DNA from: Schizochytrium sp. TIO01
Taxonomy: Eukaryota; Sar; Bigyra; Thraustochytrida; Thraustochytriidae
Direction of reading: 5' to 3'
Assembly (NCBI GenBank): GCA_004764695.1
Contig: SMSO01000037.1
Coordinates: 4,710,337 to 4,774,336, forward strand
DNA length: 64,000 nt
The notes under the pieces are model-generated. The model was not told the origin of the DNA, searched no databases, and saw only the letters and a list, made by a program, of their open reading frames with translations. Position numbers and translations under genes: made by a program. This document shows positions 1,755 to 31,318 of this stretch, one piece after another; within the stretch, counting starts at the first letter, position 1; the number at the start of each line of letters is the position of its first letter.

Positions 1755-3728
1755 TTAAATAAGCACATGAACATGCAACATGGAGGATTGCGTGCTGCTA
1801 CTCAACATAAGAATGCCACTATCGTAACCATTTTCGGGGCTAACGGATGTAGGAGCAGAAGAACTTGCCACACCGTCAGTCTCAATAGCACTGGCAACTT
1901 GTTTCACACGGATCGACGCCTTTTGTTTGGCATGGCGGTCAAATGGAGGCAAGATTTTAAGAGGAATGCGCCATGGAGATGTCTGAGTGCGTGAATTAGT
2001 GATAGGAAGGCCACCCTGCACAGTGCCAGGTCCATCCCAGCTGGTGCCTGGGTCTCGATCTTTTGCGGTTACAAAGGAAAATCGAAGATATGAGCGAACT
2101 GAGATTAGGTCTGTTTCAAAATCTGGTGTAGCGTCCACAGGAACTGTCATGATAATGCTTCGCTGAAGATTAAATCCTACTTGGACAGTGCGGGATGTCA
2201 AGATGCGTTGCCACGGGCCCATGCCAAATCCATGTGCATCTGTAAGTGGGTCTAAAGCTGCCTGAAGAGACGGTGGGCATTTACTTCGCTCTTCTAACTC
2301 CAAGGCCACCGTAATTTGATAACAGTTCACATCTGCATGAGCAAAATCAAAGGACATGAGCAATTGGTCTCCGGGCCGCACCGCCTCGCGAAACATGTGT
2401 AAAAGTGCCATATGCCTTGCCTCGCTGCCAATACGAAAGACCCTTGCACCACCTCCAGCTGCAGCGGTATCCTCCTCGTCCCCGAAGTCTGAATCTGAAG
2501 GGCTTCGATGGCGTGCGCTTGAAGGCGTCTCATCACCTGCTGCTGGAGCATACTGACTAGCGCGTTCTTCAAGAGCGATGCCGGTGCAGTCAAAGTCAAC
2601 CACCTTAAGACCAACAGCACCAGGTCTCACGTTCAATGGGAGGTCATCAGAGGCCACACGAAATGATTCGTCAGAGCCGGGTGCCATTTTCCTTCGAAAT
2701 CGAGTCTCACCGAGGATATAACTCCGCACATTAAAGTTGTGCTCCTCAACAATAAAAGACGAGAACGACCGCATACGATCTTTCCCAGTACTCAGTGAAG
2801 AACCTGGTCTTGTTACAAGGTTGCCATCAGATGATCCATTGGAGGCGCCTTGAATAGTGTCGTCTTCAGGCTCAATCGTAGAGCAAAGACGAATCGGTAC
2901 ATGCAAAACCTGTGCGGTCTCGTGGTGGCCTAGCTTAGTGCCGACACTGAGCACATAAAAGTAACGAGCAGCGCACCCTCTGTAAGACGGAGGAAGCTCG
3001 GTTGGCAGCTGCGCCTCAAAAGCAAATGCCATCTCACGGCCAGGACGACCTTCAAGAGCGCAAGCGAAGACTTCGGGAGGACTGGAGAAAATGCAGCTAC
3101 CATATTTACCAGCAAGTAGAGTGACATCAGGCATTCGTGGCATCGGAACGCTAGCGGTCTGGGAGAGGAAGTCCATGGTCGCCTCATAACCATCATGACC
3201 TGCCTGATTGACGTCTCCTGCACGAGGATTGTGATGGTCGTTTCTACGACCGACACGGACCTCAGATTTAGTCCTACGAATTACCTGCATACCTTCCTCA
3301 GCACGGTGGAGAACGGACGTTGTCTCGTGAGCTCTACGAAGACGCTTCTCGCGATCTTCAAAGTCCAAATGACCGGCATCCGCAGCCTCAGCAACCAACT
3401 CCGCATCGCGAGGAGACACCAAATGTGGATCAAAAGCCACGTGGCCGTGAATCTGGGCACTGGCCCATTCCAGAAATACGCTCTCGCGAAGGGAGTCAGG
3501 GAAATAGAAGTAAATGCGGCACTTGACGACATCGCCGGCAAAGTACGAACGCTGCGAAATCACAACATCGAGGCCTACGTTAACACTACTTGAGTTTTGA
3601 AGACTGAGGCTTGAAGATGCCGCACCAGAGGGCCCCGATGAAGAGGCATTCGAGACACTCGAGCGACGAAGAGGGCGCGGGTTCGCACCCGACCTTCTAG
3701 CAGAGCCCGCCGGCAAAAATGTAGACAT
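1755..3728 (-). CDS. RGP1: RGP1-like subunit of the Ric1-Rgp1 Rab GEF
   Basis: Arrestin-fold-like protein related to RGP1, which with RIC1 activates Rab6/Ypt6 at the Golgi for endosome-to-Golgi traffic. Seen directly: the N-terminal strand pattern with AGDVVKCRIYF followed by LEWASAQIHGH (RGP1 proteins carry a similar LAWASAQ stretch), a middle part with FRIGSEARH and a strand rich in VALELEERSKCP, and the C-terminal signature TSWDGPG...SPWRIPLKILPP, matching the TTWTGPE...FSWDLPIKVLP region of animal RGP1. The upstream reading frame continues to 3824 without an ATG; the first ATG is at 3728 (sequence MSTFLPAG), giving 657 residues, well above the roughly 390 of human RGP1. The extra length is in Ser/Gly/Asp-rich inserts (about 130-170, 280-310, 390-440), probably disordered. 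No RIC1 gene is in the window. Convergent with the NUDIX gene and divergent from the CNBD gene. Confidence 0.8.
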   Translation of the reverse strand: MSTFLPAGSARRSGANPRPLRRSSVSNASSSGPSGAASSSLSLQNSSSVNVGLDVVISQRSYFAGDVVKCRIYFYFPDSLRESVFLEWASAQIHGHVAFDPHLVSPRDAELVAEAADAGHLDFEDREKRLRRAHETTSVLHRAEEGMQVIRRTKSEVRVGRRNDHHNPRAGDVNQAGHDGYEATMDFLSQTASVPMPRMPDVTLLAGKYGSCIFSSPPEVFACALEGRPGREMAFAFEAQLPTELPPSYRGCAARYFYVLSVGTKLGHHETAQVLHVPIRLCSTIEPEDDTIQGASNGSSDGNLVTRPGSSLSTGKDRMRSFSSFIVEEHNFNVRSYILGETRFRRKMAPGSDESFRVASDDLPLNVRPGAVGLKVVDFDCTGIALEERASQYAPAAGDETPSSARHRSPSDSDFGDEEDTAAAGGGARVFRIGSEARHMALLHMFREAVRPGDQLLMSFDFAHADVNCYQITVALELEERSKCPPSLQAALDPLTDAHGFGMGPWQRILTSRTVQVGFNLQRSIIMTVPVDATPDFETDLISVRSYLRFSFVTAKDRDPGTSWDGPGTVQGGLPITNSRTQTSPWRIPLKILPPFDRHAKQKASIRVKQVASAIETDGVASSSAPTSVSPENGYDSGILMLSSSTQSSMLHVHVLI

Positions 3729-6055
3729 CACCGCCGCCCGCCTTGGAGGACAATCTGCGAGAGAGCGGCAGCAGCCTCGCGGTTTACTAGAGGATTTTTT
3801 GTTTTGTTTTGTTGTTATCTTCAAGCCTATTTTTATTCATTTCATTAAATCCTCCTTGTCCTCCTTATTCTTCTTATCATAATCTTCCTGAATAATTGAC
3901 GCGCCTGCTAGCAAGTAGCATTCACACGCATTATTATGGACTAAGCCCATAACAAATTGATGCTAGCTGGGCCTGTCGTTGTAGAAATCAGGAAAAGAAA
4001 GTGACTTTAAACACACAGAGCATTCTTTGTTTGGCAATTGAAAGAAGGATTATTTTTAGATTTATTTTGTTTTTTCCCGTCGCTTCGGGGGAATGGTGAA
4101 TGGGAAGAATGCAGCGTCTTTCCTAGATTTCTTTGGGAAGGAAAATAACAGTAAACCGATACCCTTCTCGCCAGAGAAATCCGGAATCTGAGGAACCGAT
4201 TCTCACAGAATGAGGCCAACGTGCTTTAGTATTATATTCGTGTTGATTCGCTCATCATCTTTCGTCTCACCCCAGTGACGACCACACAATTACATTTCGG
4301 CTACCATACCTTATAAGTTTTCTCAAAGTAAATGTGCAATATCTTCAAGCATATGTTGTTTTTAATTTATGGAAACGTCGGCGTTTCTGTCCATTGTGAA
4401 GATTTTATATCTCGCAATTGTCAGTCTTGTAGTTGAGGCGAATCAAGCGAAGATCAAACTATTGCAAAACATTCAACTCCAATAGCTTTTGATTTAGGGA
4501 GAGCAGTATGAAAGTTTGATCTTGTCTCTACTACGAAGCCGTGAATGCGTGACTTTAGAACCTGTGCTCGATGGGCGCATAGAATTTGAGGAAATTGTGT
4601 TGCTCGTGCTTGCTTCACAACTGAATCGATGAATAGAGTCCTTCAGAACAACTCGCATAGAAGGAATTGTGTGTTCACCATGCGGTCCTTTTATCTTTCA
4701 CCATGCGGTCCTTTCATCTTTCATAAATCTAAAATCGCTCAGCTGTGGAAGTGGAGCTACAGAGTTATTTCTACTTTCAAATGACAAGTAGGGCGGTAAC
4801 GCTCAGGAGGCTCGAACATGAGAATGTGCTAGCAGACACGGGTGTTCCTTTGGTCGAAGTTGCCCATTCTACTTATTTTCACTCATATGCTAGCACCCAG
4901 AGCAACATCCAGATGATCTAGCTAAGCTAACAACTTCGAATGGTGCAGCAGAGTTTCTTCATCTCTCAAGAGTCAGATCAGCCGCCTGCAACTTCCTTTT
5001 GATTTAATTACGGTTTCGTTGCCGAATGGTCAATGTCTAAATCTAGACATTTTCCTTGGTTCTTTTAAACATGACATGACTCCTCAAATAAAGCATTCGA
5101 ATAATTTTGGGAAACAAAATTGAAAAAATAATGGAACGATCATCGTGTTTGGTGACAATGAACTAAGAAGAGTTAAACGCAACTATACATAAGTATATTG
5201 ACAACCAGAACCTAGTTCCATAGCCGAAGAGAGCGATTATGCTCCCGGCTGATTTGATGGATTGCTTCCAAATACTTTGGAAATGGATAAATCTAATAAG
5301 GTACATTTCAGTTTTATAATTTAGATTATTCTCTTGCACTGGTTTCCCAAAGATTCGATTTTGGCTGTGATAATGCCCGTATTTAATGCCATACACTTCA
5401 TGCTCGTAGCTATCATGGATATGAGTTGTCTATTTCAACCTTTCAATTTACATATGGATCTTTCAGGACTTCACGCTTCGCTCTTTATCCTTAATCGATA
5501 GAGTGCTCTACTTCTACATGCTCTGTGCGCAGCAATTTTCCGCTCTCTAGAGTTTGGTCTTTGACTAATAGACTTGAATCTCCAACTCATAAAGTATAGG
5601 CTATTTCTAAAAGTTTGGACTCGTACCCACACTCGAGGTCTATACCTTGGTGAAGTTTCCTTGTTGCCCTCGCAAAGGCTCACCCTAGAATAGTATTTTC
5701 TGCATCTCCATGAATAGCTGCTCCAATATTACTAAGAAGAGCTTGGTCAATCGCGTCGCTCAGAACATCATGCATTGATTGAATGATAAAAGCCAGTCAA
5801 CGCGCTGCGAAACAACTTAATATAATGATATCTGCTGCCATGGTGCCATCATTGCCGATCTCGGGGTTCCGGAGGCCATTGATTTGATCAAAGATGGAAA
5901 ACAATACATAGTTCATGCAGAGCCAAAGGCTACTCTCAAACGTCCTTGCTTGGGTAAAAACTCAAGCCAAAGCACATTATTACTGGCAGTTAGGTAGGTA
6001 GTGGTAGTACCTACATAGATAGATTTTTATAACCTAGCCTATTCTTCAATGACTG
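3729..6055. other. Divergent intergenic gap with a possible decayed coding fragment
   Basis: 2.3 kb between two divergent starts, so it should hold the promoters of RGP1 and of the CNBD gene. It contains a 23-base tandem duplication (4675-4720), a TAGGTAG/CTAC-rich stretch (5991-6016) just before the CNBD start, a 19-base word shared with 23881-23899, and a stretch at about 5680-5960 whose minus-strand frame reads like protein but carries an in-frame TGA. No convincing gene was found. Confidence 0.5.
4675..4720. repeat. 23-bp tandem duplication
   Basis: Two adjacent 23-base copies, TCACCATGCGGTCC followed by a TTTTATCTT or TTTCATCTT tail, differ at one position. Short local duplication; no function evident. 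Confidence 0.8.
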
Positions 6056-8341
6056 ATGGTGTGTACTATGGGTCCCTACGCGTACTTCTCCGCGCTGGGT
6101 CAAAGAAAACAAGCTATAAGAAGCATGTGCCAATACGATCTACGCAAACTTGAGTTCGCAGACTCCAAAGAAAGCACAACAAGCCCAGGAGGCATGCAGC
6201 AGGATGGCCATAAGCTCTTGAGGAGGACCTCATCACGAAAGGGCCGCGCCTGGACCTCGCAGACAAATGTTGCGAAACCCAAGGCTCCGTCGCGAAGTCG
6301 GCGGGAGAGCATTTTATCACAACGCCCTGAAAGACGAGCGTCTAAGATAGTGCATAGTAGCACAACAGATTCCTCAGTAATCAGCGCTGCAACGCATCAT
6401 AACTTGAAGAGGGAAGGGTCAACTGCGACGAGAAGTAGTGCGCTTGTGGAACGTGGGAGCAACAACAAAACTCCCAACAGGGATCTTTGGGCTAAGGTCC
6501 GAGCAGCTGTAAAACTCACTTCTGCTATTGGCCGTATGCACAAAGAATCAGATGGGGCCCGACGGAAGCGTATACGTAGGCACTGGGATATTGCTCGGCA
6601 GATCGCCCGGGCTGCAATGTCTTTGTCAACAATAAACAACAAGAGAGCAGACGCTGATAGCCATGTAGGAATTCGTGACTACACTCGATTTATTAAACTT
6701 CTTGGCGCCCATCCCTCAGCACGCACAGATAATGACCTCAATTTTATGATGAAGTCTACTGCTCATCTTGCAATCTTTAAAGGCGCGGGGAGCTCTGCGC
6801 CACCACCTAGCTCTAACCAAAACCCGACACCCGAGAGTCTTGTGAGTGCGGAGATCTCTGAGTCTCAACATCGTGAAATTTGCCGAACTATGACTATTCG
6901 CAAGCTTAGTTCCTCCCATGAGTTTGTCTTTCGCCAAGGCGACACAGGTGAAGAGTTTTTCATTATTTTAGAAGGGTCTGTTCTTGTACAACGTGATGTA
7001 AATAATTCTGGTGTAGCTCACACCGTAGCCAAGTTAGAGGCTGGCGGGAGTTTTGGAGAGATCGCTTTATCCTCCAAATTTGTTGTTCGAACTGCATCTG
7101 TAGTTACGCTAGAACCTTGCCTTTTACTAGTGATTCATAAGGACGACTACCAGCGAATCTTGCAGAACACACATCAAGAAATATTTGATCGAAAGATTCG
7201 ATTTCTAAAACTTGTTCCGGCCTTCCAAGACCTTACTGAAAAGGAAGTATTCAATCTCTGCGTATCGCTGCACACCTATCGAGTACGAGCTGGATCGTCT
7301 GTTGTGAGAGAAGGAGACCTCCTTGACCCGCTCCGGTTCTTCATTATTGTTAAGCGTGGAGAACTCGAAGTTCGCAAGCTTGCACGAAAATCGATGCAAT
7401 CAACGAATAAAACAGACAGTAAGACGATTATGAATTCTGATAAAGTCCTTACACTATGTCTCATGGGTCCGAGTGAAAGCATTTGTGATCATCACTCACT
7501 ACATGGAAGAGAGGACCTGGACTACCGCTATCCATTTACGGTTGTGGCAAACACCTTGTGTGAGTACTATTGTATCTCCAAGCACGACCTATTTGGGAAA
7601 CTTAGTCGTATCTCTTTAGCAAATGTTCAAAAGAGGATTTCAAAATTTCCAGATGAACGTCTGGTTCGCAACGCACTTGCAGCATCAATCGGCTGGAAGG
7701 AGTATAAAGCCGACTTGATAGCCGAAATTTTAAGCAAGAAGGAACTTAGAGGGCCTGCTGGATTTAACCAACTAAGCCCTTCATATGTTCCCGAAACTCG
7801 TATATCTCGCCGTCGCAATGTTGACTTTGAGCTTGATAAACCTACAAGGCCTACTCCAAAACGGCCTACTATTGCATACCGTAAAAACTCCTCGGGAGGT
7901 CCTCGGGGCAGCACATCAGGACCTCGAACCAGAATCAGCTGCTTTGAAAGGGCTCGCAGAGCGTCTGGCGTTGACATGGATGCAACCTCCCATGATTCTG
8001 ATGACAATGAGGACGCCAGCGTCCAACGTAAAGCATATACTTGCGTATCACAGGTTTATTCAAGGTCTCAAAATACTGAAGAACAACCCGAAGTTATTAA
8101 TATTAAAAACGAAGCAGCATGCACTGGTACGTATGGCGAACTGAATTCTCTTGAGCGGGCCCACATGCGCTCAAAGCGTCGAGAGGCCCTACGAAAGCGG
8201 CTGGCTGAAGGTGCACACGAACTTGATGAGTTTCTGCAAGACGGAATGGAACTCACGAGGCATGTCTATGAAAATGCACTTTCGCATGGAGCAAGATACT
8301 ATTGTCGTTCCCTTGCGCTCACGACTGAAAGCGATCGGTAA
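6056..8341 (+). CDS. Protein with two cyclic-nucleotide-binding domains
   Basis: A 761-residue protein. Residues 1-150 are basic and Ser/Arg-rich, 150-280 helical. CNBD 1 spans about 285-370: FVFRQGDTGEEFFIILEGSV, then the phosphate-binding cassette FGEIAL (E335) and RTASV (R345). Both the ribose-contacting Glu and the phosphate-contacting Arg are present, so cAMP/cGMP binding is plausible. CNBD 2 spans about 378-515: VVREGDLLD, FFIIVKRGELEV, then a degenerate cassette without the Glu/Arg pair, so it probably does not bind nucleotide in the usual way. Residues 560-680 are Ser/Arg/Pro-rich and the C-terminus is helical. There is no kinase, channel or GEF domain, so it is not a PKA or HCN-type protein by architecture; tandem CNBDs recall a PKA regulatory subunit or CNBD2-like protein. 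ATG at 6056 is the first in frame. Convergent with the multi-GAF gene. Confidence 0.85.
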   Translation: MVCTMGPYAYFSALGQRKQAIRSMCQYDLRKLEFADSKESTTSPGGMQQDGHKLLRRTSSRKGRAWTSQTNVAKPKAPSRSRRESILSQRPERRASKIVHSSTTDSSVISAATHHNLKREGSTATRSSALVERGSNNKTPNRDLWAKVRAAVKLTSAIGRMHKESDGARRKRIRRHWDIARQIARAAMSLSTINNKRADADSHVGIRDYTRFIKLLGAHPSARTDNDLNFMMKSTAHLAIFKGAGSSAPPPSSNQNPTPESLVSAEISESQHREICRTMTIRKLSSSHEFVFRQGDTGEEFFIILEGSVLVQRDVNNSGVAHTVAKLEAGGSFGEIALSSKFVVRTASVVTLEPCLLLVIHKDDYQRILQNTHQEIFDRKIRFLKLVPAFQDLTEKEVFNLCVSLHTYRVRAGSSVVREGDLLDPLRFFIIVKRGELEVRKLARKSMQSTNKTDSKTIMNSDKVLTLCLMGPSESICDHHSLHGREDLDYRYPFTVVANTLCEYYCISKHDLFGKLSRISLANVQKRISKFPDERLVRNALAASIGWKEYKADLIAEILSKKELRGPAGFNQLSPSYVPETRISRRRNVDFELDKPTRPTPKRPTIAYRKNSSGGPRGSTSGPRTRISCFERARRASGVDMDATSHDSDDNEDASVQRKAYTCVSQVYSRSQNTEEQPEVINIKNEAACTGTYGELNSLERAHMRSKRREALRKRLAEGAHELDEFLQDGMELTRHVYENALSHGARYYCRSLALTTESDR

Positions 8342-8678: not shown

Positions 8679-11600
8679 TTAACGATTTTGGAAAGAATCT
8701 GCATTCTTTTCAATTACGAACTTGGGTTTTAGTGAAGTTGGAGCACGCTGAATTGTTGAGTAGGGCACAGTGGAAACAGTCTTCAGAATGATGGGTGTCT
8801 GCGTGACTTTCGTCTCTTCGAGCTGTACCTGTTCAAGATTAATAAGCTCACGGATAGCATCAGTACGCTTAGTTTGCGACACTCGCATTTGCTCGCAAAC
8901 TCGATGGAGCTCTCGGAGGGTATTACTTGGCTGTGATGGGACTGATAAAAGCGCTTCAGAAGTAGAAACAAAACTACTGCTGCCTCCACCGGGCATCGCT
9001 GCAACCTTAGACTCCCTCGATAAGCCAGGGTCGCATTCTTGAGGACCACCAAACATCCGATCAAGCCCCGCCTTATTTCGTTGTATGGCTGCTTTCTGAG
9101 ACTCGATACCGCGACGACGTCTTGAGCTTTGCACGGGTTCTTTAAGTCGGTGGACCTCTGAATTTAAGTCTAAATCAGAAGTTCTTAATTGAAATTCCTT
9201 CTGCAGAGGAGTGGCTGAAGACGTTTGAGTTTGATTATCAAAGTGCGCTTGCCATTTCATTTGTTTCTTCTCCTCGAGTAGTTCAAATTGTTGGCGCTCC
9301 ACCTCGCGCCTTTTTTGCTCGGCCTTCATCTTCATGTCCCTAGCAGAATCTAGGATAGCTGTTGCGTTCTGTTCAATTTCTCCTTGGCGAGCCTCGGCAC
9401 GCTTGAGCTGGGAACGCAGGTTATCAATTTGATCTTCTGATTGCTTCACAAGTCTACGAAGAGTCAGTCGATCGCGCTCCACTCGCTCACGAGCAGACTC
9501 AGCTTCCATGACCTTGTCTTCGAGTCCATTGCACCTTTGCAGTAATTCTTGTACGAAGGCCGGAGGCTGATGAGAAGGCTGATGAGAAGTGTCGTGAGTG
9601 CTTTGATTCGTCACTACTTTAGAATTTGGCTTTTCTGAGTTTCCTTTGTTTCGTTGAGATGATGAACGTCCAACATGACCCTTTCTGTTATTGGATGACG
9701 ATTTAGCAAGCTTTTCAAGTTCAGAAACGCGTTTTTCGTATGCGATAGTTTTGGCGATAGCTGTGCGCTCGCGAAGGATTCGTCGCATGAAAGCACCAAG
9801 CAGTTGCCCAAGCTGCTGAAGAAATGAGATGTGTGCATTAGAGTCGAATCGCGCTCCTCGACATACATGTAGCACACCGACAGGGCGTATTTCACCTTTG
9901 GTATCGCGGTACATGCAAGGAATCGCGATGCGACGAGTTCCGCTAGGTGAATATGAAGACTTGCTTTTGCAAGCAAGCTCGGCATCTCCCTTGAGAGACC
10001 TCGCACGATCCTCCAAAAGATACATAAATGCACCTGGACGGTCTGGAGATATGATGGAGATACCTTCGAATGAAGAAGCTGCATTCTGTTCACAAAGTTG
10101 CGATAGGGATTTTTTCAAATATCCAGGTCGAGTCATATCCGCACAAAGTTCACGACATAGTGCTGCCCATGGATTCTCCAATCCTCCCTGGTGTGTCGAA
10201 ACATCCTCATTTGCAAATCGATCCATGCCAAACTGTAGGTATTTCACAAGAGATTCACAGCGCTCGCGAAGGCTATCCATTTCATCGGGAGAGAGGACTG
10301 GAACAAGCCAAATGCATAAAACCCCTTGTACCGTTGGCACCGAAGAAGATCGAGTGGAAGAAGACGAGTGCGACTTTTGCAACGGGCAAACAATTATACC
10401 ACGAGCTTGCGATCGGAAGATCACTCGGTGATCCGCATCTGGGTGGTACCTCGGGTCATCGAGGACATCTCTTGTACAAATAGTCTGGCCAGACTTTATT
10501 GCGACACCACGCAATCCCACTAGCTGCTGTAGTTGTTCTTGCTTCTTTGTTGAAATCAACTCCACAAAAGATTCATTTTTCCGACCTGGACATAGGTAAC
10601 TTGCACCATGATCAGTAATAGTCTGTTTAAGGTCTGCAAAAGATGTGCAAGAAAATAACTGAAGCAAAAGCGCATCTTTGGCTTGCTGTAAATTTGCAAC
10701 GGCCTCAAGTTCTACTAAGCGCGCCTCAAACTGTCGTGAAGATTCTTCTATTACCTGCATCTTGCACTTCTTTTCGTCAAGACTTTGCTTTGAAAATACT
10801 AAGCGTTCTGCGCTTTGCAAAACTGCAGCCAAAAATGGGGTGAAGCGCTCTACATATAGACGATCAGCAACATCTAGTGGAATACTTAAATAGCCAGTTG
10901 CAGAAGATGCATCTTCACCCATCGGCACTAAAGGAATTACACAACCGGAGAGTAAGCCGTGTACCGAGTTTCCTTGACTTTTCAGCACCAGACAACAACT
11001 ACCACGATCTGCTTCGCACAGCAACTCCACCTCATGTTCCATAGCAGAACACAGACGTCGCAGATCCTCCGGAGTATTGACAGTGCACCCATGAGCAGAA
11101 AGTCGACAAAGGGCTGACACAGAAGTTTTCCAGCGCTCCTCTCGCAAATGTTGCGCCTCAGCTTCAGCAGTTGTCTCTTTCTGCATATTTTCATGCAACT
11201 CATTAAGCTGAGCTTTGGATTCAGATAGCATGGCCTCGACTTGCTGGAACTGAGCGATATGAGCATCAAGGGACGCAGCGTTGCTTAAGGCAATTGCACA
11301 CCACTCTACAATTGCTCGTAAGATGTCAGCAAAAGGTTCTGCGGGGTGATCAAATTCAAACTCGCCTTTCGGATCGGCGTGAAGATCAAGTACCCCCAGA
11401 ACTCGACTACTCGTGTTCGACATATCCTCAATAATAGGTAATGTCATGCGATGTCTAGATTTAACTGGTTGTCCCATCGAAGCAACATAATCAATCACAT
11501 TACAACCTTTGCGAATCCCATCGTTTTCGTCAATGGCAAACAGTTGTCGATGTTGCAAGCTTCCTGATGGATTAAAGCCATCCTCAGTCCTAGAATCATC

Positions 11601-14513
11601 AGGGTCATGTAAGCCAACCATGTACAAAAACACTGCGCGAGAATGCGTCCAATCCTCTACGATTTTTGCTGCACCCTGCTGGACTGATTTGCACAGGTTT
11701 CGTCTACCGAGAGACACAGCAAGATTAACAACTTTTGCAAAACTTTCCAAACGAATTTTTGTTCCTGACTGAGACTTGATAGCCTCAGCTTGAGTTTTAA
11801 TATTACCTTGCAACTCGGAGATTGTCGTCTCGTAAGATCGTACTACTTGAGTCTGCCTATGTGAATACTGCTGAGCAAAAGTAACCTCTATAAATGGAAC
11901 CATTGCGTGACGTATCGTATGTGCAATCTTTTCAGTTGCATCGGGGAAAGGTTTAATGAAACAAAGCAAACCTATTGTGTGCCCACGAGCATCTCGAAGG
12001 GAAACTACCCAGGCTGGGCCTTTCTCAATGGACACCGACATAAGTCGCTTTCCGAAAGCCCGAAGAAGAGAGTCGCCGCCTTGTAGTACAACCAAATCAT
12101 CTGAAGAACCTAAAGCCTTTGCAGAACTATTGCTTAGGACGTCTTTGGATAAGCTCCAATGAATGTCTCCTGCAAAACACCAGATTCCATTGTTATTCTG
12201 TTCATCCAAGTCATCCTTCTCCGACTGAAAAATTAGAACAAAGGTAGCCTCAGAGCATGTTTGCAAAGAATCTTTGAGTTCAACCATAGCTGACCCAACC
12301 TTCTTCGCAAACGAAAGATCGACTACTCTGTAAGAATCCTCTTGAGAAGCAGACGTAATATGTGCTAAAGAACTCTCGATGGTTGTCTCCAATGTATCAC
12401 AACGCTCCAGCATGAGCTTATGTACATCTGCAGACGCAATCTGATCCTCCAATGATTTTAGTTTGTCTTCTATCTCGATGACTTTTGCTTGTGACAACCG
12501 AAGAGAAGAAGAAGATAGTAACTTTTCGATTGCACAGGCGCTCGACGCCGCAAGAAGTTCCAACACCTCCCGGAACTCGTGGGCGATATTTGCAACACAA
12601 AGAACGCCCAATGTAGTTGCCCCCTTTAAACCTGTTACGGATGCCACAAGTGGAATACATAATAGACTTGTAGGATGCGTCTCTAGGCCGGCTCCATCAA
12701 TTCGATAAATATAACGTGGATCAGAGATGACATTTTCCGGAAGGAAAATAACTGTTTGTTCGCTTGCAGATGTGCCTACAAGACCCTCGCTAGCATGCGC
12801 ACGACGCTGTGGGTTGCTCTCATCAACAAATATAATCTCGTTTGGACGATCACTAGGGAGAGAAATTAGGGTGTTTAAATCCTCTCGAAGAAAAAGCACG
12901 TTTTTGAAGGAAGCGTCGCGTACCAAATTTGCAGAGTTTTCCAGAACCTGCACAATGTCAGCGATGCTCGTCGCAGAACTCACATTTCGAAGCGCAGCGT
13001 ACAATTTACAAGTTGCGTCATTCTGCGCGCGTACCCTGAGAAGATCAACCTCTGTATCTTCTAAACGGGTTTGCAGGTCCTCAACAAGACTCTGCGAGGT
13101 TCCACTTTTGTTCGCAAGCTTGAGCATTTCCAATCGCGAATCGTAAGCTTCACCCACCAAACAGACAGCATTCTCCATGATCTCGTGTACGCGCTCAAAA
13201 GCAAACTCCTTAAGGTCGATAAATCCTGCAACGAAAATTAGCGAACCATTCTCAAATGTGTCTCGAGCAATTGCAAGGGTGCACTGGTTTTCGTGAGAAA
13301 ACTTCATCTCAGCTCTGTCTTTGGGGGAAGTGGGTAGAGTTAGTGAATCGTGGGCAAATATTTGCAGGTCTTTAGCGAGCGGTGGTAGGAAAAATGTGCA
13401 TGGATCTGACAATACAGGTAGATCAATCAATTGTTTATTCGGCGATGACACACAAATCATTTGATCGCCTGCATCATTAAGACGAAAAGCATGTACAAAG
13501 GCAGCTCCCAAATCAGCGCACAAGTTTGTACAGCAACCACGAAGAAGCGAAGATATATCAACATTGATAGGAGATAACGCAAGCTGCAGCCCAAGCTGCC
13601 GCAAGCGCCCATGTAAGCGAGAATCTTGCAATTGTGCCATGGCATCTTCCCTTTCGGCAAACAGCTGATGATATTTTTCTGCGTTGCGAAGTACAAATGT
13701 ATGAAGTTCCACAATGCTTTTTGCTGCTGTCAAATGATGAGGATCATTCGAAGAAACAACCAATCGAGGAGAGTCCTTCTTGTCTATTCCAGTTACAGGT
13801 TCGAACATATTCCACGAAGAGCCATCCTCAAGCGGATGTAAGTTCTTTTCAGTCTCCAGCTTCTTCAATTCTTCCTGTGATAACATTTTGCAACGGAGAC
13901 CAGAAGGTGCTCCTCGCAGAATCCAAGAAGGGAGCGATGTCCAAAGTGCACCAAGGTCTGTGGAAAATCTTTCCAGAAAATCAGCATTCAAGCAGCCTTG
14001 AACAATTTGGATACCCTCTCTAGCTGCTTGAAGCTCTGTTTCGGCTTGAAGGGCGTGTTCTTGAGCAATCTGCAACTCACGTTCCTGGGCCTTTAGTGAA
14101 GCTTCTAAATCCTGTGTCCTCGACCAGTGGTCATGAGCATGACCTAACCATTGCGCTAGAATAGCTAGTACCTCAAAGTCATCATCATCCAGCATGAATC
14201 GGCCCGGACTATATGGACGTTCGTTCTTGCGATGCTTCTCTTCAAGAATCAGGACATGGTCTTTCCCAGCCGGCGCACCAGCCCAATGGGTCGTGTTGAA
14301 AGGTCCCTTTTGAGCAGGTTCAAACAGATGAGGGAGATCGTCTATGCAATACCACGTGGCATCTAAACCTGGACCATACAACTCTTCGATGAACCAAGTC
14401 AAGCGCAGCACCGGGTCTTCAGAAGACAATGACGCTGCGGCCTTTTGGTGGTTGGTCAATGCGATTGGTTGCGCTATTACCGACTGATGCAACCTGAGAA
14501 TCGTCAGAGTCAA
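8679..14513 (-). CDS. Multi-GAF coiled-coil giant, C-terminal segment
   Basis: This 1,944-codon frame is the largest intact part of a locus that reads from 17694 down to 8679. Repeated GAF-like modules lie at about residues 318-454, 508-658, 741-878, 934-1074, 1138-1244, 1278-1424 and 1458-1578, linked by helical spacers. The clearest shows EGLVGTSASEQTVIFLPENV, ISDPRYIYRIDG, LLCIPLVAS and LGVLCVAN, the typical GAF order of entry helix, variable loop and hydrophobic strands. A later module has GLRGVAIKSGQTICTRDVLDDPRYH. After residue 1650 comes a long coiled coil (KVMEAESARERVERDRL onwards) and a low-complexity tail. No catalytic, kinase or cyclase domain was recognised. The frame begins at a TTG, not an ATG, and its first about 22 codons are probably not translated in this frame: coding enters from the neighbouring frame at an A4 run (14443-14446). 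GAF folds bind small ligands or mediate dimerisation; the role here is unknown. Confidence 0.8.
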   Translation of the reverse strand: MTLTILRLHQSVIAQPIALTNHQKAAASLSSEDPVLRLTWFIEELYGPGLDATWYCIDDLPHLFEPAQKGPFNTTHWAGAPAGKDHVLILEEKHRKNERPYSPGRFMLDDDDFEVLAILAQWLGHAHDHWSRTQDLEASLKAQERELQIAQEHALQAETELQAAREGIQIVQGCLNADFLERFSTDLGALWTSLPSWILRGAPSGLRCKMLSQEELKKLETEKNLHPLEDGSSWNMFEPVTGIDKKDSPRLVVSSNDPHHLTAAKSIVELHTFVLRNAEKYHQLFAEREDAMAQLQDSRLHGRLRQLGLQLALSPINVDISSLLRGCCTNLCADLGAAFVHAFRLNDAGDQMICVSSPNKQLIDLPVLSDPCTFFLPPLAKDLQIFAHDSLTLPTSPKDRAEMKFSHENQCTLAIARDTFENGSLIFVAGFIDLKEFAFERVHEIMENAVCLVGEAYDSRLEMLKLANKSGTSQSLVEDLQTRLEDTEVDLLRVRAQNDATCKLYAALRNVSSATSIADIVQVLENSANLVRDASFKNVLFLREDLNTLISLPSDRPNEIIFVDESNPQRRAHASEGLVGTSASEQTVIFLPENVISDPRYIYRIDGAGLETHPTSLLCIPLVASVTGLKGATTLGVLCVANIAHEFREVLELLAASSACAIEKLLSSSSLRLSQAKVIEIEDKLKSLEDQIASADVHKLMLERCDTLETTIESSLAHITSASQEDSYRVVDLSFAKKVGSAMVELKDSLQTCSEATFVLIFQSEKDDLDEQNNNGIWCFAGDIHWSLSKDVLSNSSAKALGSSDDLVVLQGGDSLLRAFGKRLMSVSIEKGPAWVVSLRDARGHTIGLLCFIKPFPDATEKIAHTIRHAMVPFIEVTFAQQYSHRQTQVVRSYETTISELQGNIKTQAEAIKSQSGTKIRLESFAKVVNLAVSLGRRNLCKSVQQGAAKIVEDWTHSRAVFLYMVGLHDPDDSRTEDGFNPSGSLQHRQLFAIDENDGIRKGCNVIDYVASMGQPVKSRHRMTLPIIEDMSNTSSRVLGVLDLHADPKGEFEFDHPAEPFADILRAIVEWCAIALSNAASLDAHIAQFQQVEAMLSESKAQLNELHENMQKETTAEAEAQHLREERWKTSVSALCRLSAHGCTVNTPEDLRRLCSAMEHEVELLCEADRGSCCLVLKSQGNSVHGLLSGCVIPLVPMGEDASSATGYLSIPLDVADRLYVERFTPFLAAVLQSAERLVFSKQSLDEKKCKMQVIEESSRQFEARLVELEAVANLQQAKDALLLQLFSCTSFADLKQTITDHGASYLCPGRKNESFVELISTKKQEQLQQLVGLRGVAIKSGQTICTRDVLDDPRYHPDADHRVIFRSQARGIIVCPLQKSHSSSSTRSSSVPTVQGVLCIWLVPVLSPDEMDSLRERCESLVKYLQFGMDRFANEDVSTHQGGLENPWAALCRELCADMTRPGYLKKSLSQLCEQNAASSFEGISIISPDRPGAFMYLLEDRARSLKGDAELACKSKSSYSPSGTRRIAIPCMYRDTKGEIRPVGVLHVCRGARFDSNAHISFLQQLGQLLGAFMRRILRERTAIAKTIAYEKRVSELEKLAKSSSNNRKGHVGRSSSQRNKGNSEKPNSKVVTNQSTHDTSHQPSHQPPAFVQELLQRCNGLEDKVMEAESARERVERDRLTLRRLVKQSEDQIDNLRSQLKRAEARQGEIEQNATAILDSARDMKMKAEQKRREVERQQFELLEEKKQMKWQAHFDNQTQTSSATPLQKEFQLRTSDLDLNSEVHRLKEPVQSSRRRRGIESQKAAIQRNKAGLDRMFGGPQECDPGLSRESKVAAMPGGGSSSFVSTSEALLSVPSQPSNTLRELHRVCEQMRVSQTKRTDAIRELINLEQVQLEETKVTQTPIILKTVSTVPYSTIQRAPTSLKPKFVIEKNADSFQNR

Positions 14514-14751
14514 GCTTTGTCTCGTCAGAGACGAACCCTAAACTTGCTGCGATGGCAGTTAGTTTACGAAACCTTTCAAAAGAAAGCGATAATTGTTCAT
14601 GTTCAGTTTGGATGTGTGAGAGCTGAGAAGACTGCGTTTGTGCAGTATGTGAGCCCTGTCTAGACGAGTCGAGTGCTTCAAGAAAGTGCAGCACAATTGG
14701 TAGAACACCCGCAAGAAATTCAAAAAGTACACTGCGATGTTCAGAGCTCAA
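14419..14751 (-). CDS. Multi-GAF giant, bridging frame between two breaks
   Basis: A short frame joins the middle segment to the C-terminal segment of the same protein. It reads as helical, GAF-end-like sequence (SVLFEFLAGVLPIVLHFLEAL, then a Gln/Ser-rich linker and LSFERFRKLTAIAASLGFV). There is no ATG at its start. It connects to the upstream frame if the G4 run at 14770-14773 (minus strand GGGG) is one base too long, and to the downstream frame if the A4 run at 14443-14446 is one base too long. Its protein character argues against this stretch being an intron. It is not an independent gene. Confidence 0.6.
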   Translation of the reverse strand: MSSEHRSVLFEFLAGVLPIVLHFLEALDSSRQGSHTAQTQSSQLSHIQTEHEQLSLSFERFRKLTAIAASLGFVSDETKLDSDDSQVASVGNSATNRIDQPPKGRSVIVF

Positions 14752-14758
14752 AACAGCT

Positions 14759-16594
14759 TCACAATATGACCCCTGAACACATCGTAGAATGTGTAAGGGG
14801 CGTTGCTGCGTGTGAGACTAAATCTAGATGGCATCCGAATTCTTGGACCATTGCAGCTACGCGCTCAAATAAACTTTGAAAAGGTAAATTTTCAGATGCA
14901 AGAAAACAAAGCTTCTGCCCGAAATGGAAAAGTGTTTTTCGCGCTTGCTCATGTTCACTGACTAGCTCTCGCGAGCGGGTCTGAACTTGTAATAGCTTCA
15001 TTTGCTGAGCAAGATGATTCGCAATCATACGAACAAGTTTTCCGTCTGATTCTGTAAAGGGCGTTTCAAAAGCGCTGCGCGTAACTTGGATACAGCCTAA
15101 GACACCCGGCGCTAAGCCCGAAGATGAAGCCCAATGCGAGTCTGCAACATCCGCATCCGACGGACTTGGGGCAGGCCCATGTTCCATTGTAATAATTGGG
15201 ACACACAATATTGTGGTGGTATCAGGATGATTGAGTCCACGGATAAGCGCCTCATTACGTGCGATGTCTTTTCCTGCCAGAGCCAAGGTACGACCTGTGC
15301 TCATAGCACGGCCAACAAGCCCTTGACCCAGTCTAATTTCAATGTCCCCACCGGTCTCCTGAGGACTTGGAATAACCACTCGTATGGTTGGAGACGTTGA
15401 ACTTTGCAAAGGAGCAGTGTTGTGACTTTCGAGTACGAGGATATGAACGTACTGTTGTGTCACGGGTACGAATGTGTCAGTACCAATAACTGCATTAATG
15501 CATTCCTGAGCAGACGTGCAAATGCGTCGCAGAGAGAGAGGCAGAGGATCCGACAGCTTTTCCAAAATGAGTCTTGCTGTTTTCACGAACCGGTTGTGCT
15601 CTGCAATGCTAGACTGATGAGTACGTCTTTCTTTGATAAGAGTGTCTCCAGCCTCAGTGCTCTGTGCCGTTAGAGTAGCGACAATATCACTCTTTTTTTG
15701 TTCCTCACGCATCCGCTGGAAAACAGATGCCATTAGATTTGATAGGGAAGAAAGTAGATCAGAATCAGTTCCTTCAGCACCAGTGAGAGCCAATTGTGTT
15801 TCGCCATCAATAGAAAAAACTTGCAAGGTTTCGCTTGATGTGAGATGATCAGGTTTACTGTTACATGAATAGATCTGTACCGCTCTGGCAGACAGAATAG
15901 ATGGCAGTTGTTTCTGAGCATACTCTACGACCTCTGCCTCTGAGGTCATCTTAGCAACTTGCAAGACAAATGTGAACAGTTTCTGGGCACGGTTTACTGA
16001 GTCCTGCTGATTTTGTAGATCCAGAATTTGGCTTTTTGAGTGAGCCAATTCTTCTTGGAGTTTGAGAATTCCGTCATCGAGCTCAAGGCTAGACTGTGCA
16101 AGCTCTTTAGAAAGCAGATATAATTGGTAGACATTTTTCGCAAGGTCTATTGCTAAACGTTGCTCCCAAGGTTCAAACAGAGTTTGCTGAAGCTCTTGCT
16201 GCTGCTCACCTTGTGTATGTTCCACATTTCTTTGTCCCTGCTGAGGATGTTGTTGCTGATTATGTTGGTGACGACGTGCAAGGAAAATGATTGCCTCTCT
16301 ATCACCTAGTGTGATATCAAGTTTCATGTGTACCGGGTATCCTGTTGGCTTGATTGGTATCTGACTTGAGGCATATTGGATGGCACAAAAATCAGCCTTT
16401 ATGCACAAACGAATGCCACGTTCAACAAGTTCCATAAAATGCATTTCAGAAGTGTGGAGTGAAACATTTGTGATTGCCTCAGCAATGACCTCTTGACCAG
16501 CCCGTAGAGCATCTGACCGTGCTTTAATTGCTTCTTCAGTTCCTACAAGATTTTGTTTGGAATCTGCGAGGGCTTTGTTTACAGTGCTCAGCAT
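14759..16594 (-). CDS. Multi-GAF coiled-coil giant, middle segment
   Basis: A 611-codon frame continuing the same protein. GAF-like modules at about residues 45-155, 201-302 and 350-533, and the start of another from about 555 to the end. The third is the clearest: QGLVGRAMSTGRTLALAGKD, TTILCVPII and GVLGCIQVTRSAFETPFTE. A Gln/His-rich insert lies near residue 115 and coiled-coil spacers separate the modules. ATG at 16594 exists, but the frame is open upstream to about 16630 and protein-like there (VVDSLKDQM), so this ATG is probably internal. The frame stops at a TGA just after the GGGG run at 14770-14773, in the middle of a GAF module, which suggests a break rather than a natural end. Confidence 0.75.
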   Translation of the reverse strand: MLSTVNKALADSKQNLVGTEEAIKARSDALRAGQEVIAEAITNVSLHTSEMHFMELVERGIRLCIKADFCAIQYASSQIPIKPTGYPVHMKLDITLGDREAIIFLARRHQHNQQQHPQQGQRNVEHTQGEQQQELQQTLFEPWEQRLAIDLAKNVYQLYLLSKELAQSSLELDDGILKLQEELAHSKSQILDLQNQQDSVNRAQKLFTFVLQVAKMTSEAEVVEYAQKQLPSILSARAVQIYSCNSKPDHLTSSETLQVFSIDGETQLALTGAEGTDSDLLSSLSNLMASVFQRMREEQKKSDIVATLTAQSTEAGDTLIKERRTHQSSIAEHNRFVKTARLILEKLSDPLPLSLRRICTSAQECINAVIGTDTFVPVTQQYVHILVLESHNTAPLQSSTSPTIRVVIPSPQETGGDIEIRLGQGLVGRAMSTGRTLALAGKDIARNEALIRGLNHPDTTTILCVPIITMEHGPAPSPSDADVADSHWASSSGLAPGVLGCIQVTRSAFETPFTESDGKLVRMIANHLAQQMKLLQVQTRSRELVSEHEQARKTLFHFGQKLCFLASENLPFQSLFERVAAMVQEFGCHLDLVSHAATPLTHSTMCSGVIL

Positions 16595-16614
16595 TTGGTC
16601 CTTCAGACTATCTA

Positions 16615-17694
16615 CTACGCAAATGACAAAACAACACCGATTTCCTCACAAGCAGACTGCAGAACAGTTTCTGAAGGTAGGGGATTTCCATCAAGTCTAA
16701 GCACAGCGCAAAGCCCTTGAGTTCCACCATAGATAGGCAGGTATTTGATTCCTTCGGTTTCCAGGGGCTCTTGGTGTTCAAAAACAAAAGCATACTCGTC
16801 AGCTTCCCCCAAAGAACTAGTTTTGCTATCCTTAAGAACTAGCTCGCAAGACTTTACCTGAAGTAATCCAGGGAGGTCGGTGCGTACAACTGAGAGGACA
16901 TCCTCGATGGCACGTTGTTGGTGCAGCTCCAACCGAAACCTGTACAAACCCTCCCATAAACGCGCCTCGTCCCTAGCTGCTATAACAACGTGAAGCTCAT
17001 TATCCAGGTGCTCCAAAGAGTCCTGCAGAGTCCCTGCACGTTCACGCTCCGATTCCCATAGAGCCCGAAGGTCACTATTTTGCTTCACAAGCACTGGCAA
17101 AAGCGCCAGGCGGTTCTCGAGTTCCATAATCTCTGAAGCTGGCTCACCCTCCACAAAGTCATCGTCCACGTCCTCGGTCTCGCTCGCGAGAATATCTTGC
17201 AACGAGGAGTTCTGCGACCAGATTTCGTTGCCAGCGCTTGGTGAGCGTGGTCTTACAATATCATCATAAACATCGCCACAATTGTCGATTTCTGTGCTAG
17301 TTGAGTTTAGTTTTGGGTTTTTAGATACGTGCGTATTTACTGAGGTCCCCAAATGACCATCTTCTTGGTCGTCTCGCGAAAGCGTTGACCTGGAAAGATC
17401 ATGGCGTGTCATCGACGGAGACTCTGGCGATGAAAGAGAAGCGTTCCTAACATTATTTGCACTTCCGATGCGGTCTGATGTGAAATTCTGGGACTTGGAA
17501 GCAGAAGCCAAGCTCGACGCCACCAGGAATGGGCTTGTCTTTGATGAATGTTGCTGTGCCGATGAACTTGACGTCAGCCCAAGACCACTAGACCGCCCCA
17601 ACGCAGCGGGTGCAGCATCAGCAGGGCCCAAGGGTGGCTTGGTACCACTGACTACCCGCCGATCATCCTCCCGCGAAGAGGCCGTCGCGCGCAT
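16615..17694 (-). CDS. Multi-GAF coiled-coil giant, N-terminal segment
   Basis: About 359 codons from the ATG at 17694; the open frame upstream to 17712 has no ATG. Residues 1-170 are Ser/Asp/Pro-rich and probably disordered, 170-245 form a coiled coil (ENRLALLPVLVKQNSDLRAL onwards), and 250-359 look like a GAF module (VVRTDLPGLLQVKSCELVL, IKYLPIYGGTQGLCAVLRL). The frame ends in two consecutive TAG-like triplets near 16615, exactly where the helix closing a GAF module should continue; the frame one base over carries on into the middle segment without a gap. So the segment is probably the true N-terminus of a protein of about 3,000 residues. Divergence of function from the ABCA gene upstream on the same strand is complete; the two have separate starts. 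Confidence 0.75.
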   Translation of the reverse strand: MRATASSREDDRRVVSGTKPPLGPADAAPAALGRSSGLGLTSSSSAQQHSSKTSPFLVASSLASASKSQNFTSDRIGSANNVRNASLSSPESPSMTRHDLSRSTLSRDDQEDGHLGTSVNTHVSKNPKLNSTSTEIDNCGDVYDDIVRPRSPSAGNEIWSQNSSLQDILASETEDVDDDFVEGEPASEIMELENRLALLPVLVKQNSDLRALWESERERAGTLQDSLEHLDNELHVVIAARDEARLWEGLYRFRLELHQQRAIEDVLSVVRTDLPGLLQVKSCELVLKDSKTSSLGEADEYAFVFEHQEPLETEGIKYLPIYGGTQGLCAVLRLDGNPLPSETVLQSACEEIGVVLSFA

Positions 17695-27827: not shown

Positions 27828-28577
27828 GGTTCACGCAGACCTCGGGTTCTTGAGTTCTTCGAAAACAGAGCCTTATTACTGGCTAGTTGCTCTGGAAAGA
27901 TAACAGAATATACCAAGGCCGAATCAACACTGCTTGACCTCGAGCCCACGTGAGTTTGCAGGACCACTATTCCTCGACTTTCAATCAAGCCTCTTCAGTC
28001 TTAAGACCAGTGCCATGATGACGTATTAAAAAGATACTAATGGAAGTACCTAGTAGTACAACTAACTACCTACACCGTAAAATTGTCTAAAACTTATTTT
28101 AGTTGAAAATTTCAGTCGTCCTGTTTGGGGAATTTAGTATCCGTTGGACATGACCACACTACTCACATGGTTTATGTTCTTACTCTCTATTTTACTATAC
28201 TATCAAGTAGTCCTGGACTTGCAGTATGACAGGTCAGAGTAATGCACACTTGCGCTATTAGAAACGGCGTCGTAGCAACGTTCTAATTTTGTGGAAAAGT
28301 AGTCTCCCGTTTGTTGTGCTACAATTAAACTGTCTGCTGCTAGTTACCTTGAAAGCCTCAGTAGTTGAGACTGAAGGCCCTTTCTCAAGGAAAGTGGTAC
28401 ACCAAAGCGAAAGGCGTGGTTGTTTGACTACAGTTGCAGAAAGACAGAGCACAGGAGTGCAGGGGTTTGTTTGATTCGAGGTACCAAGAAACTCTGGATT
28501 CTTCGCACATAGGCTTCGTACTTTGGAAAACCAGAAGTAGCACTATTATCTAATAGGTTGGCAAAACATTTACGAGT
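27828..28577. other. Divergent promoter region
   Basis: Shared upstream region of the hydrolase (-) and CFAP58 (+). It has a TAC/TAG-rich stretch at about 28045-28075 like those in other gaps. A 61-codon plus-strand frame (28289-28474) has no recognisable features. No gene seen. Confidence 0.55.
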
Positions 28578-29402
28578 ATGGCGGACCCTCGTATGGAGGC
28601 TTGCCAAGAAGCCTATGATGCGGCCCTTGGGAAGCTCGAGGGTATGGACCGCTTGAGATCTGAGTTCGACAAAATGTGGAAAGCATTAACCAAGTCTCAC
28701 GAGAGTAATCAAAAACTCTTACACAAAACCTCCGAGCTCGAGAGTGAGATCTTGCTTCAGTCTGAAAAGGTACAGCGAGCGAAATCAGAAGAGGAGCTCC
28801 AGCAGCTTGAAAAAAAGGACCTTCAGGAGGAGATTGAGAAGCACCATCGCGAAATTGGCATGCAGAAACAGCTTCATCGTGAGCAAACTGCCAAACTTGA
28901 AGAGCTTATGACTTCAATTCAAGAGCTTGAGGAGCTCGTTGATGTAGGCTCAGGGTGGACACCAGAACAGGAGAAAAAACTCGCACAAATACAGAAAAAG
29001 CAAGTTGATCTTGAGCACCTTTTAGAGCAGAAATTGTCCAAGTTGCAAACAAGTAGACAGGACGTTGAAGTTATTAGCGAGACAGTAGCAAAGGCAGAAG
29101 CAGACCGAGATGCTCTAGAGGAGGAGATTGCTGAACTTCGTTCTCAGGTAGAAGATAATGAGCGAAGCTGCAAGGAATCCCAGCTTCGAAGAGACCGGGT
29201 AGATGCAGAACTTAGAACCCTCAAAGCGGATGTGGAGCGATATCAGCTGGAGCTAAATGCAAAAGAAGGACGGGTCAAAGATGGCGAAGCAGAAATTGAG
29301 GCGCTGGAAAACAAACTGAAGGCCGCCAAGTTAAAGATGGAGCATTACTTAAACGAGTATGATAGCTTGTTCAACAAACTCAAAGATACACTGGGGCATT
29401 AG
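28578..29402 (+). CDS. CFAP58: CFAP58 (CCDC147), N-terminal segment
   Basis: 274 codons, almost entirely coiled coil, forming the N-terminal third of CFAP58, a ciliary axoneme protein needed for motile cilia and sperm flagella. The start ATG (28578) is followed by a helical domain and continuous heptads with no low complexity. The frame ends at TAG 29400-29402 directly after a GGGG run (29393-29396), and the frame one base back continues without a gap into the C-terminal segment. If the G run were five bases the two parts would join as one protein of about 913 residues, close to the roughly 870 of human CFAP58. So the stop is probably not real. Confidence 0.88.
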   Translation: MADPRMEACQEAYDAALGKLEGMDRLRSEFDKMWKALTKSHESNQKLLHKTSELESEILLQSEKVQRAKSEEELQQLEKKDLQEEIEKHHREIGMQKQLHREQTAKLEELMTSIQELEELVDVGSGWTPEQEKKLAQIQKKQVDLEHLLEQKLSKLQTSRQDVEVISETVAKAEADRDALEEEIAELRSQVEDNERSCKESQLRRDRVDAELRTLKADVERYQLELNAKEGRVKDGEAEIEALENKLKAAKLKMEHYLNEYDSLFNKLKDTLGH

Positions 29403-31318
29403 ATGATCAAACTCGCATTAATAAATTTCTCACGGAGGAGCTCGGAAAGCGCAAAGATGATATTGAAATTAAGAGAAATGAGGCCAAGGCTGTGCGCAAG
29501 GAAATGGACGGTGTTAAGCGAATGATGGAGCATGCTGAAAAGCGCATTGCAGAAACCGACGCCTTGAGAGAGAAAGCAGAGGCGAATCGGCTTCAGATTA
29601 AGGAACGCACACAAACTATGGAACGAGAGATCAAAATTGCACGAAAGGAAAACGATACTCTTCAGCGCCAAGTTGACGATCTAGTCAAGGAGCGAGAAGT
29701 TCTTAACAAGACACTAATGAAGGCAGAAGACCGCACCAAGCAAATTCATGACCTCATTGCGATGTACAACAACACGAAGCGTAACTTGGAGAATGAAATT
29801 CAAGGGTACAAAGGTGATGCTATCATTGAGCGTCAAGGGATTGAAGCTCTTGAAGAGGATGTACAAAAATACGAAAAAGAAGCGGCGATGGAGTCTCAGC
29901 GTTTTGCTAATGCGCAGGAAGAGGTTCGCTTACAAGATGCTAGAGTTTCAGAATTACAAAAGCGGATTGCTGAAGGCGAGGCCAAACTGAAGCAGCAACA
30001 AAACTTATATGAAGCTGTTCGCTCTGATCGTAACTTGTATTCAAAGAACCTAATTGATGCTCAAGAGGAGATTGCAGAAATGAAACGCAAGTTCAAGATC
30101 ATGAACCACCAAATTGAGCAATTAAAGGAAGAAATTACGGGCAAAGATCATTCATTGGTAAAAGAGCACTTTGCCCACCAAAAGGTTGAGAAAGAAAAGG
30201 AACAGCTCAAAAATGAACTTACTAAGATTAGGAAACAGACACAGTCTTCAGAGCAAATCATCACCAACCAAGAATCTGAGATTCAGAAACTTACACAAAT
30301 TATGCGTGAGGCCGAGGAAGAGCGTATGCGTCAGGAAAAAGAGTACCGAGCAATTATTAGTGAAAGAGACATTCTTGGTTCTCAACTAATCAGAAGAAAC
30401 GAGGAGCTGGCTTCGCTTTACGAGAAAATCAAGCTACAGATGTCCTCTCTACGAAAGGGCGAAGGGCAATTTAATGCCATGTCATTAGATTTGCGTAAAC
30501 TTCAGCGCTCACTTCGCTCCTTACATCGTGAACGCAAGAAGCTTACGGAACAAGTCTCAGGTATTCCAGAGCTTGAGACTGAGATTATCCGTCTCGAGCG
30601 TGAAATTGTGCAAGAGCGATCTAAAGTTAAAGCATTATCAGATGAGATGGAACGACCTCTGAATGTGCATCGTTGGCGCAAGCTTGAGAGTTCTGACCCA
30701 GAAAGATTTGCACTTATTAAAAAAATCCAATCTCTTCAAGTCAAGTTGATTGAAAAAACTGAAGAAGTAGCCTTGAAGGCCAAACAAATTGAAGAGAAAG
30801 AGAAACTGTATGTCGAGCTCAAAAATGTTCTGGCTCGTCAACCTGGTCCAGAGGTTGCTGAACAACTTATTGTTTACCAACAAAACCTCAAAGACAAGCA
30901 CCGCCAAATTAAGGAAATGGAAGCCGACTTGGATAGCCATCGTGCCAAGGTGAACGAGTTTAAATTTGAGATTGATGCACTGAACCATCAAATGCATAAA
31001 CTCAAGAAGGAGTACATTCGTAAGAATCTGCGAAGCTTGCGTTATCAGGAAGGTGATGAGTCCGACGATGAAAACCAGTCTGATTCAAGTTCTGACTCTG
31101 ATTCTGATGACAGTGACTCTGACGAGTCTACAAGTTCCTCGTCTTCCTCTTCGTCTCGATCGTCTTCCAGGTCCTCTCGAGCAGAGAAGGAAGAATCGAT
31201 GGCTTCCCCAGGATCATCCAAAAAAAGTAAGTCTATCATAATTGAAAATTTGGAGACCAAGACAAATCAGGAAGGCTCAGAAAACCAGGAAGAGGAAAAG
31301 GATATTGAAATTCCTTGA
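29399..31318 (+). CDS. CFAP58: CFAP58 (CCDC147), C-terminal segment
   Basis: This frame opens at the break and begins with LDDQTRINKFLTEEL, matching the LNDQT-type conserved stretch of CFAP58. The C-terminal half is strongly diagnostic: SLYEKIKLQMSSLRKGEGQ, then NVHRWRKLESSDPE, LIEKTEEVALKAKQIEEKEK and NVLARQPGPEVAEQL, all characteristic of this family. After the coiled coil (ends near 31040) comes an acidic Ser/Asp-rich tail and a short charged end of about 95 residues, an extension not in the animal protein. A potential AATAAA lies near 31511. There is no ATG at the opening; the first in-frame ATG is at 29504, well inside the conserved coiled coil, which supports the joined reading. Convergent with the MATE gene. 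Confidence 0.93.
   Translation, partial: LDDQTRINKFLTEELGKRKDDIEIKRNEAKAVRKEMDGVKRMMEHAEKRIAETDALREKAEANRLQIKERTQTMEREIKIARKENDTLQRQVDDLVKEREVLNKTLMKAEDRTKQIHDLIAMYNNTKRNLENEIQGYKGDAIIERQGIEALEEDVQKYEKEAAMESQRFANAQEEVRLQDARVSELQKRIAEGEAKLKQQQNLYEAVRSDRNLYSKNLIDAQEEIAEMKRKFKIMNHQIEQLKEEITGKDHSLVKEHFAHQKVEKEKEQLKNELTKIRKQTQSSEQIITNQESEIQKLTQIMREAEEERMRQEKEYRAIISERDILGSQLIRRNEELASLYEKIKLQMSSLRKGEGQFNAMSLDLRKLQRSLRSLHRERKKLTEQVSGIPELETEIIRLEREIVQERSKVKALSDEMERPLNVHRWRKLESSDPERFALIKKIQSLQVKLIEKTEEVALKAKQIEEKEKLYVELKNVLARQPGPEVAEQLIVYQQNLKDKHRQIKEMEADLDSHRAKVNEFKFEIDALNHQMHKLKKEYIRKNLRSLRYQEGDESDDENQSDSSSDSDSDDSDSDESTSSSSSSSSRSSSRSSRAEKEESMASPGSSKKSKSIIIENLETKTNQEGSENQEEEKDIEIP

Follow-up and report, generated by a model that had tools for sequence, protein, structure and literature searches.

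GAF folds are usually regarded as sensors controlling the enzyme to which they are attached. In the phosphodiesterases PDE2A, PDE5A and PDE6 and in the cyanobacterial cyclase CyaB2, such folds stand in series and are joined by helices, and in the known tandem GAF proteins (PDE2A, PDE6 and CyaB2) adjacent GAFs form parallel dimeric stalks through their first and last helices. The NKFDE motif is present in the tandem-GAF phosphodiesterases as well as in CyaB2. GAFs also occur in KdpD, PtsP and other bacterial sensor proteins, and the cyanobacterial multi-GAF photoreceptors bind bilin and have a kinase output. One of these photoreceptors, Nostoc all2699, has three GAFs (PMC6696110).

The protein analysed here, hereafter the poly-GAF protein, seems to share with all2699-type photoreceptors the arrangement of several GAFs in series, and with PDE2A, PDE5A, PDE6 and CyaB2 the joining of these folds by helices. 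It differs from each of the described systems in a particular way. Tandem-GAF phosphodiesterases and CyaB2 combine two GAFs with a catalytic domain, whereas no catalytic domain is recognised in the poly-GAF protein; unlike the KdpD- and PtsP-type proteins, it carries no recognised kinase, phosphotransferase or other output; and the cyanobacterial photoreceptors have fewer modules. In addition, the NK of the NKFDE motif of PDE/CyaB2-type GAFs is lost in the poly-GAF modules wherever these can be aligned.

The gene was found in a window of 64,000 nt from Schizochytrium sp. TIO01 (GCA_004764695.1, contig SMSO01000037.1, positions 4,710,337-4,774,336 of the forward strand), which is the whole stretch of DNA analysed and to which all coordinates below refer unless a locus is named. 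The poly-GAF gene is real and occupies positions 8679..17694 of the minus strand, with its ATG at 17694 and its stop at 8679; all features of the protein given below lie on this strand. Three open frames contribute to it (17727-16615, 359 codons from the ATG at 17694; 16645-14759, 628 codons; 14537-8679, 1,952 codons), and a coding-looking stretch in the third frame (~14420..14790), open and protein-like, bridges the 628- and 1,952-codon frames. Joined, the frames give 2,966 amino acids, in accordance with the about 3,000 residues previously proposed for this interval, and we infer that they are expressed as a single polypeptide.

The N-terminal 215 residues (17050..17694) are Ser-rich and probably disordered, as judged from composition and a charge-hydropathy scan, while residues ~2686-2767 (9279..9524) appear as a C-terminal coiled coil in a crude heptad scan; both regions had been claimed in the preliminary description and agree with these simple scans. 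The heptad scan also marks a short coiled-coil-like stretch ahead of the first module (16957..17046) and further ones between some of the modules, and the C-terminal tail (8682..9278) has no Pfam domain match. By visual inspection the protein was divided into 14 modules (M1-M14), whose boundaries were set with knowledge of the GAF hypothesis and thus with some bias towards GAF, which local scoring limits.

Three of these modules are clear GAFs. A Pfam scan of the open frames gave two GAF-type matches in the protein, one to GAF in the 628-codon frame (M4, 14969..15598; 30.6 bits against a cut-off of 22.4 bits) and one to GAF_2 in the 1,952-codon frame (M9, 12501..13016; 25.7 bits, below the GAF_2 cut-off); the isolated M9 module matched GAF at 23.1 bits, over the cut-off. 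The GAF superfamily profiles (PF01590/PF13185), to which the preliminary description had pointed as a check, therefore place M4 and M9, and no other module, over the curated GAF cut-off. A profile built from 13 ordinary GAFs that this genome encodes detected M4, M9 and M13 (10209..10691) clearly and hinted at M1 and M3, and hhalign gave 91%, 87% and 75% for M4, M9 and M13, respectively. The hhalign scores of M10, M12 and, marginally, M1 were above those of all 55 controls.

Several further modules are suggested to be GAF-like by scoring each of them against 300 shuffles of itself. A p value of about 0.01 or better was obtained for M1, M3, M4, M9, M12, M13 and M14, and of about 0.04-0.05 for M10 and M11, while among 66 control tiles from other proteins in the window none reached 0.01 and one reached 0.05 (best tile 1.9 bits, versus 6.5 for M1 and 9.3 for M3). 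When 80 bacterial GAFs were added and came to dominate the profile, M1, M3, M4, M9, M11, M12 and M13 were retained (p ≤ 0.007), M14 less firmly (p = 0.043), and M10 was unsupported by this second profile (p = 0.35). Thus M1 (16618..16953; 1/300 shuffles, second profile p = 0.003, leave-one-out 0.007), M3 (15686..15991; 0/300 shuffles, p = 0.003) and M12 (10785..11120; p = 0.01 and 0.003, leave-one-out 0.03) are supported as short GAF-like modules, and M13 was likewise equalled by 0/300 shuffles. M11 (11262..11756; p = 0.007, alignment in register) is supported as a GAF fold lacking the usual DPRF lid segment. M14 (9762..10175; p = 0.013, 0.043 and 0.04) is probably GAF-like, and its C-terminal end gives a weak, in-register match to GAF_2. 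For M10 (11856..12338), which is tentatively GAF-like, the shuffle test gave p = 0.04, and a run with the profile extended by the supported modules gave p = 0.02, a weak value since 5 of the 52 controls in that run reached 0.05.

The remaining five modules, M2 (16088..16501, with a Gln-rich insert), M5 (14641..14940, spanning a frame change), M6 (14112..14570; p = 0.06-0.25), M7 (13656..14012) and M8 (13125..13610), are assigned by position and pattern and stayed at the level of the controls in all sequence tests, including those with the extended profile. The sequence comparisons accordingly point to three certain GAF modules, seven to nine supported ones, and up to 14 that are possible. The preliminary description had counted ten or more GAF-like modules; serial GAFs stand, with three clear and seven to nine supported, but ten or more are not shown, M2 and M5 to M8 being without support.

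This pattern gives considerable weight, somewhat short of an even chance, to the explanation that the gene encodes a multi-GAF coiled-coil protein and not a uniform array, with only three to nine modules being GAFs and with M2 and M5 to M8 made up of alpha/beta or coiled-coil segments of another kind. It would readily explain why these five match the control level in every test. However, they are similarly spaced between helical linkers and show a helix-strand-strand-helix pattern by eye, and profile tests on single sequences miss very divergent members of a family.

Structure models extend the evidence for one module below Pfam detection. Because MAFFT does not succeed in aligning the modules with one another, no alignment made from the window alone was used for folding. 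An AlphaFold model of M9-M14 without any alignment had a pLDDT of 38 and was uninformative, being poor even for the known GAF M9; the Foldseek matches of this model are meaningless at such confidence and were discarded. M11 was instead folded with an alignment of M11, five other modules of the window and 26 bacterial GAFs, yielding a pLDDT of 76.5 and a pTM of 0.73, with five models alike in confidence. The solved folds closest to the M11 model are GAF domains throughout, led by the GAF of KdpD (Z = 15.6, 2.5 Å over 130 residues) and followed by PDE2A GAF-B (Z = 14.9), a PtsP-type GAF (14.6) and PDE5A (14.2), the GAFs of PDE2A and PDE5A being the closest among eukaryotes; Foldseek was concordant. 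M11 is hence predicted to adopt a GAF fold, although the alignment presupposes a GAF and the evidence consequently lies in the confidence value and not in the fold itself. Structure prediction, also raised beforehand as a check, thus favours the GAF reading for M11, with GAF rows in its alignment, and yielded nothing usable from the single-sequence model of M9-M14.

The ligand pockets appear to be unevenly preserved. The N and K of NKFDE are present in most of the 13 own-genome GAFs, while at the motif positions M4 has R, S, F and D and M9 has N, I, F and L, and the NK is absent from M11, M13 and M14 when these are aligned with bacterial GAFs. Most of the short modules were not placed by hmmalign, so the residues of the motif and the lengths of the pockets can be read in few modules. 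In those that are alignable, the loss of NK speaks against cyclic-nucleotide sensing through the known chemistry. Part of the usual ligand-pocket segment is missing from M1, M3, M11 and M12, and full-size pocket segments are found in M4, M9 and M13, with the lid motifs SDPRY in M9 and DDPRY in M13.

Our survey of all three frames with Pfam and NCBIfam revealed no catalytic or DNA-binding output domain over cut-off, nor any other domain besides GAF, which bears out the earlier claim that no catalytic output domain is recognisable; a divergent output domain could be hidden in the unassigned segments. Other GAF genes of the same genome, whose domains were named mostly by eye, encode a PI3-kinase, phosphodiesterase, cyclase, histidine kinase or membrane part, or are short and have two GAFs only; hence the poly-GAF protein stands apart from them. 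For instance, a single 1,375-codon frame (2641-6768 of locus L018, G000:C24:3488200-3498100) appears to join in one chain three domains (cyclic-nucleotide-binding, GAF and PI3-kinase catalytic), of which the profile confirms the GAF only. In two other loci (L028, G000:C33:1442000-1450000, and L024, G000:C24:62000-70000), a GAF follows a hydrophobic part that resembles TMEM65 by eye. A paralogue search in the genome, in which weak matches can escape, returned, apart from the poly-GAF gene, a single GAF match at chance level. Searches with the whole protein yielded no relatives in the viral and prokaryote collections and nothing relevant among PDB sequences, and the open-access literature yielded no account of GAF arrays from cilia, oomycetes or thraustochytrids.

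We consider the poly-GAF protein to be a scaffold or spacer, with a probability of roughly 0.5, on the grounds of several reduced pockets, the missing NK in the alignable modules and the lack of an attached enzyme. Seven to nine, perhaps up to 14, GAF-type folds would be strung in series and joined by helices as beads on a rod and, by analogy with the tandem GAF proteins, pairing of the chain, probably as a dimer, would give a long beaded rod that might hold its partners at set distances. The dimer and the rod shape are suggested by this analogy. Ligand binding would be retained in M4, M9 and M13 at most. If this is true, an enzyme-less chain of mostly worn-down GAFs would represent a structural reuse of the fold, and would caution against labelling every GAF protein a sensor. 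A bolder version, in which almost the whole protein consists of about 14 GAF folds and serves as a cytoskeletal ruler or spacer, a novel structural use of the sensor fold specific to labyrinthulomycetes or stramenopiles, seems improbable to us.

The full-size pockets of M4, M9 and M13 and the lid motifs of the latter two would also suit a scaffold that responds to ligands, in which these three modules bind a small molecule or a partner, reshape the rod and relay a signal to a separate enzyme. Such a relay is conceivable but doubtful, since the NKFDE motif is without its NK, the short modules leave little room for a pocket and the output partner is not known.

A flagellar or basal-body component of the radial-spoke or linker type is a still less likely role for the protein. 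It is brought to mind by the CFAP58 and CFAP47 genes within the same window and by a Foldseek match of the M11 model, one of its weaker ones, to chain 9fqr_Xl of the 96-nm repeat of the bovine sperm axoneme (probability 0.99, E = 0.02). We take this chain to be EFCAB5, which is a guess; if it holds, EFCAB5 of mammalian sperm RS3 may be an axonemal protein with a GAF-like fold. The paper of the 9FQR model assigns EFCAB5 to the stalk of the RS3 radial spoke and reports a DPY30 motif in it (PMC11779644). However, neither an EF-hand nor a DPY30 domain, by which EFCAB5/RSP2-type axonemal proteins are marked, was found in the poly-GAF protein (Pfam, E up to 10), and a fold match at E = 0.02 is uninformative on location. 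Moreover, two ciliary genes among about 20 are not clearly above chance, and neighbouring genes are a weak guide in eukaryotes. The CFAP47-like gene (37965-47357, minus strand) is an unbroken frame of 3,130 codons with Pfam CFAP47, ASH and CH matches. On the other side of the poly-GAF gene, and tail to tail with it, lies a gene for a 762-codon protein with a cyclic-nucleotide-binding domain (6053-8341, plus strand).

The coding reading of the poly-GAF gene continues across all three frame changes. Two of the joins offer 46-nt GT-AG intron options (14818-14773 and 14480-14435), so that these two changes could be introns; alternatively, each of the three changes could be a one-base indel. At 16637-16615 an indel was judged likelier than a 23-nt intron, since on both sides the sequence reads as protein right up to the break. 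It appears quite improbable that the locus is a decaying gene or consists of two or three genes instead of encoding one protein: three frame changes within 9 kb do contrast with the unbroken CFAP47 frame nearby, but every open frame is long and the reading crosses each change, such introns are possible at two joins, and conserved genes also show apparent single-base indels (CFAP58 at 29366-29402 and a GAF-cyclase gene).

In the CFAP58 gene (28557-31318, plus strand; Pfam CFAP58_CC, E = 2e-83) the frame is split at the apparent one-base indel, with LFNK followed by TQRYTG as expected from one missing base. The gene combining a GAF with a class III cyclase (L025, G000:C24:4534000-4543000) has a one-base frame shift within the conserved cyclase domain, and after this shift an intron-like stretch that ends in TTCTACAG. 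Another gene of the window (61310-63529, minus strand) shows an unusual pairing, in which leucine-rich repeats share one chain with an RNA adenosine-deaminase (A_deamin) domain.
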